From IMG/VR virus record IMGVR_UViG_3300025671_000195, positions 1 to 36,932 of that record: a DNA stretch of 36,932 nt. One strand, written 5' to 3'. The notes under the pieces were generated by a model. That model had not been told where the DNA came from and did no database searches. It saw nothing but the letters and a program-made list of their open reading frames with translations. Made by a program: the position numbers and the translations under genes. This document shows, one piece after another, positions 1 through 36,932 of the stretch. The DNA is from a virus. Position 1 is the first letter of the stretch, and each line of letters opens with the position of its first letter.

Positions 1-207
1 GAATTAAGCTCTATTTATTAATGGTTCGGGTTATGAATTATATTTGGTTTCAAGGTGTCAAAAATACTGATATATTTTATTTATCAAAGACTTATGCGTG
101 ATAGGTATTATTTATAACCAATGCAACAAATAATTATCCATGTCAAACTATGATTTTATATTATATCTTTTTATATTATATGTTTTTATATAATGAAATC
201 GCATGCT

Positions 208-262
208 CGACCTTTAGGTCGGATCAAATGGACCCCCCGAAGGGGGACATACTAGGGTGTCC
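208..262. other. Cluster of short GC-rich hairpins
   Basis: CGACC (208-212) pairs with GGTCG (217-221) across a TTTA loop. CCCCC (234-238) pairs with GGGGG (242-246) across a GAA loop. GGAC (230-233) can close around that hairpin with GTCC (259-262), or GGACA (245-249) can instead pair with TGTCC (258-262). The last two foldings exclude each other. These are GC islands in a very AT-rich stretch, so they stand out. No T-tract follows, so a simple intrinsic terminator is unlikely. Confidence 0.55.
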
Positions 263-336
263 GTACTTATGTATTACAACTAATAAATTTCTCATAGAAA
301 TTCTCAATATCAAGGGATCATATAATTATTAAAATC

Positions 337-387
337 GTGGCTCGCTATTCGCTTTGCTCATAAGCACAGCTCGCATAGCGTAGCTAC
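337..387. other. Long imperfect hairpin, candidate structured RNA or DNA element
   Basis: The 51 bases fold on themselves almost completely. GTGGCT (337-342, one G-T pair) pairs with AGCTAC (382-387). CGCTAT (343-348) pairs with ATAGCG (375-380), leaving T381 bulged. After a small internal loop, GCT (351-353) pairs with AGC (368-370) and TGCT (355-358) with AGCA (363-366) around a CATA loop. That makes 19 pairs with no coding frame. There is no downstream T-run, so it is not an obvious terminator. It lies upstream of both promoters and would need a transcript from the left edge or beyond the window to be made as RNA on the + strand. Confidence 0.6.
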
Positions 388-452
388 TGCTCGCCTAATC
401 TACTGAGTAATGGGGTAGAGGTATGTGATAAGTAAAATAAATCAGAACTCTA

Positions 453-9830: not shown

Positions 9831-11366
9831 ATGTCAAAAGCTAGTATAGATCAAATAAGAGAAGCAGCAGAAGCTGATCTCTTAACGTTTATTAAGTTAG
9901 TAGCTCCTCACTTAATGTTAGGTGCTATTCACGAAGAATTAATACAATGGTGGCAACGTCAAGATGCTAAACAAAACCAATTAGTATTACTTCCTCGAGG
10001 ACACATGAAGTCTAAGTTGATTGCTTATAGAACTGCATGGTGGATTACAAAGCATCCTGAAACAACTATACTCTATGTTTCTGCTACTGCTGACTTAGCT
10101 GAAAAACAACTATATGCAATTAAGCAGATTCTAGATAATCCAATCTACAGACGTTACTGGTCAGACATGATACACCCAGAAGAAGGTAAACGTGAAAAGT
10201 GGGCAGTTGCTGAGATTGCTGTAGACCATCCACAAAGAAAACTAGAAGGAATTAGAGATGCTACTTGTAAGGCAGTTGGACTTACTTCAAATACTACTGG
10301 CTTCCACGCTGATGTCGTTGTTCTTGATGACATTGTTGTGCCTGGTAACGCTTATACTGAAGATGGAAGAGACAAAGTATCAGCAGCTTATAGTCAACTG
10401 GCTTCCATTGAAAATCCTGGTGCTTATGAGTGGGTTGTTGGTACTCGTTATCACCCCAGAGATATTTATGATACTATGATTAACATGAAAGAAACTCTTT
10501 ATGATGATGAGGGAGAGTTAGTATCAGAAGATCCAGTCTATGAATTATTCCAAAGAGTTGTAGAAACCAATGGTGAGTTTTTATGGGCTAAAAGAACAAG
10601 AGAAGATGGTAAAGCTTTTGGATTTGATGCTAAAGAACTAGCACGAATCAAAGCTAAGTATGTAGATAATACTCAGTTCTATGCTCAATATTATAACAAT
10701 CCAAATAGTAATGAGACAGCTCGTATCAATGCAGATAACTTTCAATATTATGATAGAAATGTTCTACAAAATAAAGAAGGTGATTGGTACATGCGAGATC
10801 GTAAACTTAATGTGTATGCAGCAATCGACTTTGCGTTCTCATTAAGGAAGAAAGCTGACTATACAGCGTTAGTTGTTGTAGGAGTAGATCATCAAGGGAA
10901 CTTCTATGTTTTAGACATAGATCGATTTAAAACAGAACGTATTGTAGATTATTATAATCACATTCTTACAGCATGGCAGAAGTGGGGCTTTAGAAAACTT
11001 AGAGCTGAAACCACAGTAGCTCAACAAACGATTGTTAAAGAGCTAAAAGAAAGTTACTTAAAGCCTAATGGTATACCTCTTTCTATTGAAGAGTTTAGAC
11101 CTACTAGACATTTAGGTGACAAAGAAGAACGTGTAGGTGCAGTGCTTGAACCTAAGTATGACAACTTACAAGTATGGCATTATAAAGGTGGTAATTGTCA
11201 ATCATTAGAAGAAGAATTAGTCATGACTCATCCACCTCATGACGACATAAAGGATGCTCTATCAAATGCTATAGCTATAGCTGTGATTCCTAAACAGCGA
11301 GTAGGAGCTTTTAGTGTAGGTAGAAATATAGTAACACACTCACGCTTCGGTGGTGTATCTTATTAA
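9831..11366 (+). CDS. terL: Terminase large subunit
   Basis: 511 residues, ATPase plus nuclease motor that packages DNA through the portal. The ATPase half has a Walker A-like LPRGHMKSKL (54-63), Walker B VVVLDD (162-167) and a coupling-type GTRYHP (204-209). The nuclease half has the first Asp in AAIDFAFS (D333) and a DDIKDALSNA acidic pair (about 471-475). Length and motif order fit podovirus terminases. It is preceded by four tiny basic genes and followed after 12 bases by the portal gene, the usual packaging order. A close small-subunit gene is lacking; the 687 gene is the candidate. Confidence 0.95.
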   Translation: MSKASIDQIREAAEADLLTFIKLVAPHLMLGAIHEELIQWWQRQDAKQNQLVLLPRGHMKSKLIAYRTAWWITKHPETTILYVSATADLAEKQLYAIKQILDNPIYRRYWSDMIHPEEGKREKWAVAEIAVDHPQRKLEGIRDATCKAVGLTSNTTGFHADVVVLDDIVVPGNAYTEDGRDKVSAAYSQLASIENPGAYEWVVGTRYHPRDIYDTMINMKETLYDDEGELVSEDPVYELFQRVVETNGEFLWAKRTREDGKAFGFDAKELARIKAKYVDNTQFYAQYYNNPNSNETARINADNFQYYDRNVLQNKEGDWYMRDRKLNVYAAIDFAFSLRKKADYTALVVVGVDHQGNFYVLDIDRFKTERIVDYYNHILTAWQKWGFRKLRAETTVAQQTIVKELKESYLKPNGIPLSIEEFRPTRHLGDKEERVGAVLEPKYDNLQVWHYKGGNCQSLEEELVMTHPPHDDIKDALSNAIAIAVIPKQRVGAFSVGRNIVTHSRFGGVSY

Positions 11367-34225: not shown

Positions 34226-34743
34226 TATAATGGAATATCGTCTTCCATATCTGCAACTGAATTAGCAGAATTGTTATCCATTACAAAGTTCTCAAACTCT
34301 TTAGCCATACCTAGAATGTCTGCTACTGATGGTCTTTTACCTTCAGCAGTTAGAGCAGTAATAGCAGAAGAAATTGATGACTGTCTTACGATCATAACTT
34401 GACGTTGTGCTCGTTCTTCTTTAGTTTCATAATTACTACCAGTGACTCGTGTAGTTGGTTTAGCATTACTTGAAGTACTTGTAGCTTGTGCTATTGCATC
34501 AGCTCCAATACTAATCCACTGCCAATAACCATTGTCATCCTTCTGAGTATTGACATCTACTGTATCACCTTTTTGCCATTCTTTAGCCTGTTTAAACACA
34601 TCAGGATTACTGAATGACATTAGCTTTTTAGATTGCACTTGACCACTATCATTCTTGTATGTTACTTCCATTGACTGATATGATCTACCATTCTTAGTTG
34701 AATGAGTATTAGGTTGTCCTACATCAATTACTGTGATTTGCAT
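34225..34743 (-). CDS. Single-stranded DNA-binding protein
   Basis: 172 residues. An N-terminal OB-fold candidate (MQITVIDVGQPNTHSTKNGR... WQKGDTVDVNTQKDDNGYWQWISIG, about 1-80), a Ser/Thr-rich linker (about 85-105), a helical region, and a short acidic tip VADMEDDIPL. The acidic tip ending in DDIP(L/F) is the protein-interaction tail of SSBs. It protects exposed strands and recruits replication enzymes. It overlaps the polymerase C-part by 20 bases and is next to the exonuclease, typical of a T7-like replication block. Confidence 0.8.
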   Translation of the reverse strand: MQITVIDVGQPNTHSTKNGRSYQSMEVTYKNDSGQVQSKKLMSFSNPDVFKQAKEWQKGDTVDVNTQKDDNGYWQWISIGADAIAQATSTSSNAKPTTRVTGSNYETKEERAQRQVMIVRQSSISSAITALTAEGKRPSVADILGMAKEFENFVMDNNSANSVADMEDDIPL

Positions 34744-35449
34744 TTATAATCTCCATATCACCCCATGTTTGTCCAACTTGACATTCGACTCGCATAGGTA
34801 AATTAAATTCTACTCCGAATAACCTACTAAAATTATCAGGAATATCCTCGAAACATTTATCAACTATGTTGACCAATGTAACATTATCCCATACTTTTGG
34901 ATCAAAGTCAAGGATAATTGAATCGTGAACAGTATTCACCATCTTCACTCCATCACGACCTTTAAGACGATTCCTCAATGATACTCGAGCTATCGCCATT
35001 AAATCTGCACCTAGTCCTTGAACTGGATAATTTAATATCTTTGTTCGAGGATACTTCATCTTACCATACTTAATCTCAGGCTCATAAAAGTAAGTTCGTC
35101 CTGTTGGCATGATAAGCTTATGATCTCTTGTAGCTTTAAATACAATCTCTTCGTGCCACTGATAGAGTTGTTTGTATTTACCATAGAATTCTTTAATGAT
35201 CTTTTCCCAGTAGTCTTCATTACCTACATCTTTGAAGTTAGGATCATTAGCATAAGACCAGGCACTACCTCCATAGATCAATCTAAATACGAATGTCTTA
35301 GCAATCAATCTACTAGGTAATCCAAATCTCTTCTGATTATCAGAGTGCATATCTGTGCCTTGCCATATCTCATCAATCGCTATTTGATCTTGAGACAGAT
35401 AACTGGCACCTACCCACTCTAGTTGTTTTGCATCTGCTTGTAATAACAT
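34724..35449 (-). CDS. DNA polymerase family A, C-terminal part (palm/fingers)
   Basis: 241 residues carrying all catalytic motifs of the polymerase domain. Motif A is ADAKQLEW with metal ligand D6, starting only five residues after the Met. Motif B is R47-xxx-K51-xxx-F55-xxx-Y59-G60, with Phe at the position equal to E. coli Pol I 762. NYPVQGLGADLM follows, and motif C is VHDS (H175-D176). It lacks the exonuclease, thumb and first palm strand, which are encoded at 35894-36932. ATG overlaps the stop of the small gene before it (TAATG), with AAGAGG about 7 bases upstream. The two parts should assemble into one enzyme; continuity at the break suggests no missing residues. Confidence 0.9.
   Translation of the reverse strand: MLLQADAKQLEWVGASYLSQDQIAIDEIWQGTDMHSDNQKRFGLPSRLIAKTFVFRLIYGGSAWSYANDPNFKDVGNEDYWEKIIKEFYGKYKQLYQWHEEIVFKATRDHKLIMPTGRTYFYEPEIKYGKMKYPRTKILNYPVQGLGADLMAIARVSLRNRLKGRDGVKMVNTVHDSIILDFDPKVWDNVTLVNIVDKCFEDIPDNFSRLFGVEFNLPMRVECQVGQTWGDMEIINANHSN
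34883..34911 (-). promoter_or_regulatory. Possible internal promoter for SSB and exonuclease genes
   Basis: Minus strand: TTGACT (34911-34906), 17-base spacer ending TGG, GATAAT (34888-34883, one change from consensus). The -35 and the TGG before the -10 match the three left-arm promoters. It lies inside the polymerase coding region, where it encodes FDPKVWDN, so coincidence with coding sequence is quite possible. Expected start is near 34876, about 130 bases before the SSB gene. Confidence 0.4.
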
Positions 35450-35703
35450 TAGTAATGCCTCTTAATATAATCTATTAATTTCTTTTTAGATGGAACAGAC
35501 AAATTCTTCATGAGAAACTCAACACCTTCAATCATAATTAAATCTTCAATGTCTTTAGATATATACTGCATCCAAGCTCTATCAAGTCCCATCTTTTCAA
35601 TGTGTTCATATAACTCGTTTAAACGATCACTACGAGGATTATCATTACGAAAGTAATCATCTATACCTGTAATAGCTACGCTTATTTTCTTGCTATGACT
35701 CAT
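35449..35703 (-). CDS. Small protein inside the split polymerase, paralogue B
   Basis: 84 residues, between the two polymerase parts and coupled on both sides by TAATG. The first half is polar (AITGIDDYFRNDNPRSDRLNE), the second a helical module ending LIDYIKRHY. Residues 43-84 align without gaps to the last 42 of the 64-residue protein next door, with 12 identities (A, DI, I, GVE, M, L, S, final HY). The gene carries one GTTTAAAC in its RLNEL codons. No known domain; not an HNH, GIY-YIG or LAGLIDADG nuclease. It may bind the polymerase. Confidence 0.7.
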   Translation of the reverse strand: MSHSKKISVAITGIDDYFRNDNPRSDRLNELYEHIEKMGLDRAWMQYISKDIEDLIMIEGVEFLMKNLSVPSKKKLIDYIKRHY

Positions 35704-35897
35704 TAATAGTGTTTAGCTAGCCACTTAACAATCTGTTCAGTAGAGTAATCATTAAGATGTTCCATAACGATCTCAACACCTATTTCTTGAATGATTGTGT
35801 TTATGTCATTAACTGTATGCACTACATAAGCTTCTTCCTGATCTGATTGAAGTTGCATACCCTCATCATAATCAGGTGTGTAATTGTCACTGTTCAT
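35703..35897 (-). CDS. Small protein inside the split polymerase, paralogue A
   Basis: 64 residues. Its start, with the best Shine-Dalgarno in the region (AAGGAGG, 4 bases before ATG), lies within the last codons of the polymerase N-part and overlaps its stop (ATGA). The acidic N-terminus (NYTPDYDEGMQLQSDQEEAY) is followed by a helical module (NDINTIIQEIGVEIVMEHL, ending IVKWLAKHY) shared with the 84-residue neighbour. No enzyme motif. The pair looks like a duplication, and strong translation of this gene right after the N-part hints at a function with the polymerase. Confidence 0.7.
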   Translation of the reverse strand: MNSDNYTPDYDEGMQLQSDQEEAYVVHTVNDINTIIQEIGVEIVMEHLNDYSTEQIVKWLAKHY

Positions 35898-36932
35898 ACT
35901 GCCTCCTTATATCTTGATAATAATAGACCTTTGATTTCACTATCAAAGTTTTGTAAATTAGGTTTACTACTTGATAGTCTACCTGTCCTTGCTACGCACT
36001 GGTTAAGTTGACCATAAATATGACCTCGTTCCCAGTTTTGTTCTGTAATCAAATTAACTAAACCTTTATAGTATGCTGTCATTCTCTTCTCTAAAACGGC
36101 TCTTGTCAATATGATCTTAATAACTTCTGAAGCTTTCTTCGATCCTGCTAAACTCCTAAGTGTTTGCTCATCAGTAGAATATAAACCTTCTTTTTCTAAT
36201 TCTGAGCCTTTTAATGGTTTAACAAGCCTAGGTAATTCTAGTTCTTTGTCTCTCCATCTCATTCTTACTTCACCTTTTTTCTGTCCTGATTTAAATATAC
36301 CATCAGGTTCTTGCTCCCTATACTTAATAGTGCCACCATAAAGAAGAGCACTGACGTGATCGACACTACTAGCATTAAAAGAGGGGAAGTTATGGTAACT
36401 ATACAATCTCTGATCAAGCTTAGCAATCTGTTCCTCCAATTCATTACCTAAAATCTCTGACTTATCCTGATCGTATAAGACTCCATTAAACTCCATTTCC
36501 TCAAGAACAAGTAAGTCCTGATTGTGTAAGCTGATTAGTCTTTTAAGATGTGAGTTAGCCTCAAGATCTTCTAACTGTTTTAAATATACTTGCTCTGTAA
36601 GATCTAAATCTTTCTGCAAATACTCCTCTAGAATATCACGAGGAATCTCATTAGTATCAATGCCATTCTTCCAATACTCTTCTTTAACTATGTCTAGTTT
36701 AGTCTCTAGTCCATAGTGTTCACAAACTTGATTCAAGCTAGGATATGGTTTTGATTGACCTGTTAGCATGAAATGCACCAACTGACAATCCCATATTCTC
36801 TTCTCTTGAAAGTCTATGCCATATTTACGAATCCAATGTAAATCAAATTTAATATTGAATCCTACAAGCATATCATGATTGTTGATGACCGACTGAACAT
36901 GATCAAGATCATCACGATATGGATGTTCTGTA
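35894..36932 (-). CDS. DNA polymerase family A, N-terminal part (exonuclease, thumb); runs off the window
   Basis: At least 345 residues; the frame is open to the right edge (TEHPYRDDLDHVQS before the Met at 36871), so the real start is outside. FNIKFDLHW is exonuclease motif II and EEYLQKDLDLT contains the Y..xD of motif III, so the proofreading domain is present; motif I lies beyond the edge. The thumb follows, then YGQLNQCVARTGRLSSSKPNLQNFD, the conserved segment before the palm. It stops after IKGLLLSRYKEAV, where an intact family A enzyme would continue into motif A, found on the separate gene at 34724-35449. Split rather than degraded: both sides keep every expected residue. Confidence 0.9.
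   Translation of the reverse strand, partial: TEHPYRDDLDHVQSVINNHDMLVGFNIKFDLHWIRKYGIDFQEKRIWDCQLVHFMLTGQSKPYPSLNQVCEHYGLETKLDIVKEEYWKNGIDTNEIPRDILEEYLQKDLDLTEQVYLKQLEDLEANSHLKRLISLHNQDLLVLEEMEFNGVLYDQDKSEILGNELEEQIAKLDQRLYSYHNFPSFNASSVDHVSALLYGGTIKYREQEPDGIFKSGQKKGEVRMRWRDKELELPRLVKPLKGSELEKEGLYSTDEQTLRSLAGSKKASEVIKIILTRAVLEKRMTAYYKGLVNLITEQNWERGHIYGQLNQCVARTGRLSSSKPNLQNFDSEIKGLLLSRYKEAV

Follow-up and report, generated by a model that had tools for sequence, protein, structure and literature searches.

The window, that is, the whole stretch of 36,932 nucleotides analyzed here, is a linear IMG/VR record of 36.9 kb without the early region, and its source is a Zobellviridae-type podophage. 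The + strand carries the large terminase, portal, major capsid, and tail genes, while DNA polymerase, exonuclease, and ribonucleotide reductase are encoded on the − strand. The nearest relatives are the OM43 phages MEP401 and MEP402, the Manatee Spring phage MW202697, and the Lentibacter phage ICBM2, with MEP401/402 and ICBM2 belonging to the Zobellviridae by classification. Since three contigs of closer relatives (L002–L004) run beyond the left end of the window into apparent leftward genes, positions 1–686 are part of the divergent region between two arms. The first rightward gene (687–1238, + strand) encodes a phrog_8035 protein, and the large terminase subunit TerL follows at 9831–11366 on the + strand (phrog_38, E 3.6e-95). 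At the other end of the window (34724–36931), the DNA polymerase is encoded by two − strand ORFs separated by a small one. The polymerase of MEP401/402 is split likewise, and the authors of the work on these phages suggested an intron (PMC10580990).

The initial annotation described positions 200–400 as a structured non-coding block upstream of the first promoters. The first sigma70-like hexamers downstream of the block start at 453 and 624. A T-tract was said to be missing, and a transcription terminator was indeed excluded, as no stem followed by a T-run was found in 1–700. The 19-pair imperfect hairpin at 337–387 (+ strand), which lies over GCTCGC repeats, was recovered with the coordinates and pairings originally given and with a folding energy of −21.6 kcal/mol. 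None of 300 dinucleotide shuffles reached so low an energy (z −3.7), and among 3,688 segments of 60 nt, the one that begins at 331 had the second-lowest minimum free energy. The stems and mutually exclusive pairings described for 208–262 are also present, but their folding is not exceptional (z −0.2; 117 of 300 shuffles were at least as stable), and this segment is distinguished by its GC-rich composition rather than by its folding. It contains, on the + strand, a small hairpin CGACC-TTTA-GGTCG at 208–221, which is kept in L004 only, a hairpin CCCCC-GAA-GGGGG at 234–246 formed by a C-tract and a G-tract, and an alternative hairpin GGACA/TGTCC at 245–262 (arms 245–249 and 258–262), which excludes the one at 234–246.

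Window positions 230–303 match a site found in around fifty relatives, with one copy per locus and on a single strand. The site is defined by a fixed point, which is spanned by TGCAT|TGCAMCT..AATTTCTMAYAGAAATT and preceded by G-tracts at distances of about 42, 31, and 23 bp. The core in the window, TGTATTACAACTAATAAATTTCTCATAGAAATT (270–302, + strand), scored 29.9 with a 33-column matrix built from the gap-free alignment of 18 named phages, none of which came from the clade of the window. The runner-up in the 36.9-kb window scored 9.2, and ten shuffled windows peaked at 5–18. The fixed point in the window falls at 274/275 (±1 bp), in the divergent region, 412 bp before the gene that begins at 687 and ahead of the structural genes. 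In 23 IMG/VR relatives, a single copy of the site was likewise found on the same strand upstream of the phrog_8035 gene.

Among 38 nonredundant sequences, G occupied positions −31 to −28 in 86–100%, with more G-tracts near −42 and −23. The conserved tract corresponds to GGGGG at 242–246 in the window (+ strand), 29–33 bp before the predicted cut. According to the family alignment, the C-tract opposite it (233–238, + strand) stands where other lineages have a G-tract. This −42 tract is C in the window, L004, L008, MEP402, and VpV262, and likewise in L176, L178, L180, L183, and L205. The hairpin at 234–246 exists because the −42 tract is C in the window, and it therefore represents one of the states in which a conserved pair of tracts occurs.

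The same core lies directly behind the terminal repeat of the cobaviruses ICBM1 and ICBM2, whose direct terminal repeat (DTR) ends are PacBio-supported and located in exactly the corresponding region (PMC6775973). The repeat-end junctions are ACAAT|GCGACTAAAGATTTTCTAATAG in ICBM2 and ACAAC|ACACAAAAATATTTACTAACAG in ICBM1, with GTAT|TACAACTAATAAATTTCTCATAG as the counterpart in the window, so the sequence directly after the ICBM1/ICBM2 repeat end is also present here. A second model covering −45 to +28 was trained on 16 environmental contigs, MEP402, and the Manatee phage, a training set that included no phage with determined ends, although the register of the training contigs was taken from the first matrix, which introduces a mild circularity. 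The top match of this model on either strand was at most 1 bp from the DTR end in all five short-DTR phages, with offsets of −1 for ICBM1, −1 for ICBM2, 0 for Vibrio phage VpV262, +1 for Pseudoalteromonas phage RIO-1, and +1 for Pseudomonas phage O4, and the five DTR ends share one alignment column. The short core by itself placed four of the five, while the core match of VpV262 was poor and needed the G-tracts. Among the phages with reported ends, Klyazma alone departs from the fixed point: its annotated 711-bp repeat (OP125547, L024), reported as Sanger-verified (PMC9960094), stops 82 bp (712–793) before its copy of the site. The second DTR boundary was also checked for a copy of the site, and none was found there.

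A protein-blind check was conducted by fetching IMG/VR contigs solely by the 16-base core and then scoring them. TerS-like and TerL genes were present downstream on the same strand in 11 of the 17 best-scoring contigs; ten of these clearly had the G-tracts, and in the remaining one (L074) the G-tract was weaker. Another five had neither G-tracts nor TerS-like/TerL genes, and the last (L130) had the motif and the G-tracts with no terminase gene within the stretch covered. As a probe, the 16-base core alone proved too weak and returned many unrelated contigs.

Sequence comparison thus demonstrates a homologous placement of the terminus, and the block that precedes the first genes is very probably the genome-end (terminase) site of a short-DTR Zobellviridae-type podophage. 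A packaging or end structure was among the possibilities raised by the initial annotation, and homology to phages whose termini have been reported supports it strongly. The predicted chromosome end, a putative terminase cut, would lie at 274/275 (±1 bp). Given this cut point, 208–262 would be the end of the DTR and 337–394 flanking unique sequence. By homology to ICBM1, ICBM2, VpV262, RIO-1, and O4, the DTR is predicted at 100–274, with 274 as its right edge and a start at 100 that is only indicative. The DTRs of most relatives range from 74 to 172 bp, namely 159 bp in ICBM2, 172 bp in ICBM1, 139 bp in VpV262, 121 bp in RIO-1, and 74 bp in O4, against the 711 bp reported for Klyazma. The VpV262 and RIO-1 values were taken from annotation, and the O4 repeat was detected here as identical record ends.

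Several other repeats were observed around the predicted end. Three 15-bp AT-rich direct repeats at 149–194, within the predicted DTR, are kept in L002 and L004 and absent from L003. Fur-box-like arrays such as ATGATAATCATTCTCA and AATGAGAATCATTCTCA lie immediately upstream of the G-tract block, probably within the DTR, in L003 (around 2530–2620), L008, and the oyster phage contig PQ867841 (L037). Imperfect palindromes of the GTGATAAGTAWTACTTATCA type flank the predicted end of the window on both sides (67–86, 98–117, and 425–445) and also occur upstream in L002–L004, MEP401, MEP402, and L176; they resemble operators for a regulator of phage or host origin.

On the unique side of the predicted cut, three GCTCGC direct repeats (340–345, 369–374, and 389–394; + strand) are spaced by 29 and 20 bases and account for three of the four + strand copies in the 36.9 kb. 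The spacings in relatives are 29/10, 29/20, 30/10, 21, and 9/41, all at most one base off whole helical turns, although these values are partly non-independent owing to shared ancestry. The copies are never inverted in the relatives compared, and the repeats persist where the 337–387 stem fails. The simplest reading is that they are candidate binding sites for a packaging protein beside the cut.

The phrog_8035 gene adjoins TerL in several genera, with Klyazma, TC6, CVT22, ICP2, CW02, and L014 as examples, while tail genes separate the two in the window. In the AlphaFold2 model of the protein (mean pLDDT 73.8), long helices follow a compact, helical N-terminal portion, and the sequence contains an AT-hook-like RGRP segment, for which some members gave weak Pfam matches. 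Searches of Pfam and NCBIfam otherwise gave no match for phrog_8035, and Foldseek returned only weak matches, including some annotated as terminase small subunit, with E values of at least 0.28. The assignment as a candidate small terminase is therefore based on gene position.

We propose that, in the concatemer, the terminase would recognize the G-tract array (around 230–262) and the AT-rich core (270–302), and probably also the phased GCTCGC repeats at 340–394. Cutting at about 274/275 would create a chromosome end beside the leftward early genes, so that the DTR would lie immediately to the left of 274, with unique DNA to the right continuing into the structural operon. Both the recognition by the terminase and what each element contributes to it are inferred. 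It is conceivable, if improbable, that the packaging enzyme recognizes a non-B or alternative structure and thus reads the end through an unusual DNA shape, which would be provided by three phased, G-quadruplex-capable G-tracts in most lineages and by the C-tract/G-tract hairpin in the clade of the window.

A replication origin, to which the hairpins, repeats, and AT-rich DNA at the junction of the divergent arms would belong, is a very unlikely explanation of the block. The divergent intergenic position, the AT-rich 15-bp repeats, and the strong conservation of the AT-rich stretch 488–560 in L002–L004 are in its favor, but an origin does not explain a conserved fixed point at most 1 bp from the DTR ends of five phages. 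The earlier suggestion of an origin is compatible with the intergenic region, while nothing within 200–400 is specific to one, and an origin elsewhere in 1–686 would be compatible with the terminus explanation. Between two promoter-like sites, 449–600 comprises AT-rich non-coding DNA and a GTCTG..CAGAC hairpin and is nearly identical in L002–L004, exceeding the flanking DNA; it is a candidate origin or regulatory element.

The initial annotation also considered an unknown phage RNA or switch. A structured RNA (small RNA, leader, or switch) transcribed through 200–400 and acting by its fold would fit the stability of 337–387 relative to its shuffles, and the covariation score ranked within the top 20 of 500 shuffles for five sequences. 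However, the stem is broken in L002, L004, and L008, with 26% of cells unpaired. L002 and L004 lack half of the 3′ arm of the outer stem, and L003 retains the outer stem with a different inner hairpin. The covariation analysis called for at the outset, applied to the four stems (337–387, 208–221, 234–246, and 245–262) among few close relatives and hence with limited power, gave nothing convincing, and conservation of the pairings in relatives was not observed. An Rfam scan of the window produced no match. Averaged over the family, the folding z was −0.6 on the upstream side of the cut point and −0.4 on its downstream side, folding z-scores revealed no structure shared across the family, and inverted repeats around the cut showed no excess over control regions. 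Moreover, both rightward promoters lie downstream of the block, and the conserved part of the block, 270–302, is nearly unstructured. What the relatives have in common is a DNA sequence on one strand, not a pairing, and the hairpins are probably by-products of the tracts and repeats rather than a conserved feature. An RNA acting by its fold is accordingly extremely unlikely.

In T7, a palindrome near the terminal repeat has been proposed as a hairpin primer for duplication of the repeat. An equivalent role for the stable fold at 337–387, which lies on the unique side around 60–110 bp from the cut, is the least probable explanation, as the stem is disrupted in the three relatives named above and the others have no comparable excess of inverted repeats or folding.

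The preferred reading, a terminase site at the genome end, can be compared with known systems. In lambda cosB, the R sites are bound by the small terminase gpNu1. The site described here resembles cosB in that phased same-strand repeats flank the cut, in this case beside a candidate small-terminase gene; the sequences are unrelated, however, and the site in the window implies no cohesive ends. The window shares with T7 a DTR genome that is presumably cut from concatemers by terminase, but the sequences differ and the window showed no gene for a T7-type RNA polymerase. The cobaviruses, Lentibacter phages ICBM1 and ICBM2 of the Zobellviridae, are closer, with the same divergent early/structural region and a G+C-rich repeat end, but their three G-tracts are replaced in the window by the C-tract/G-tract hairpin. 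In the available sections of the cobavirus paper, the DTRs and the G+C-rich repeat end are already described and compared with T7 for DTR and concatemer cutting, while neither the sequence across the cut nor its occurrence elsewhere in the family is described in those sections (PMC6775973). Apart from the site, VpV262, RIO-1, and O4 show little sequence similarity to the window. No earlier description of a family-wide site was found in the searchable literature, which did not include the RIO-1 and VpV262 genome papers, so an earlier mention is possible.

For most phages in this Zobellviridae-type family, the genome ends are undescribed. Because the site locates the reported short DTR ends with an accuracy of 1 bp from sequence alone, it would allow metagenomic and misassembled genomes to be oriented and cut correctly. 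It also names a putative DNA substrate together with a candidate small terminase, and the phased repeats and the replacement of a G-tract by a C-tract at one position provide specific predictions on what the terminase may read.
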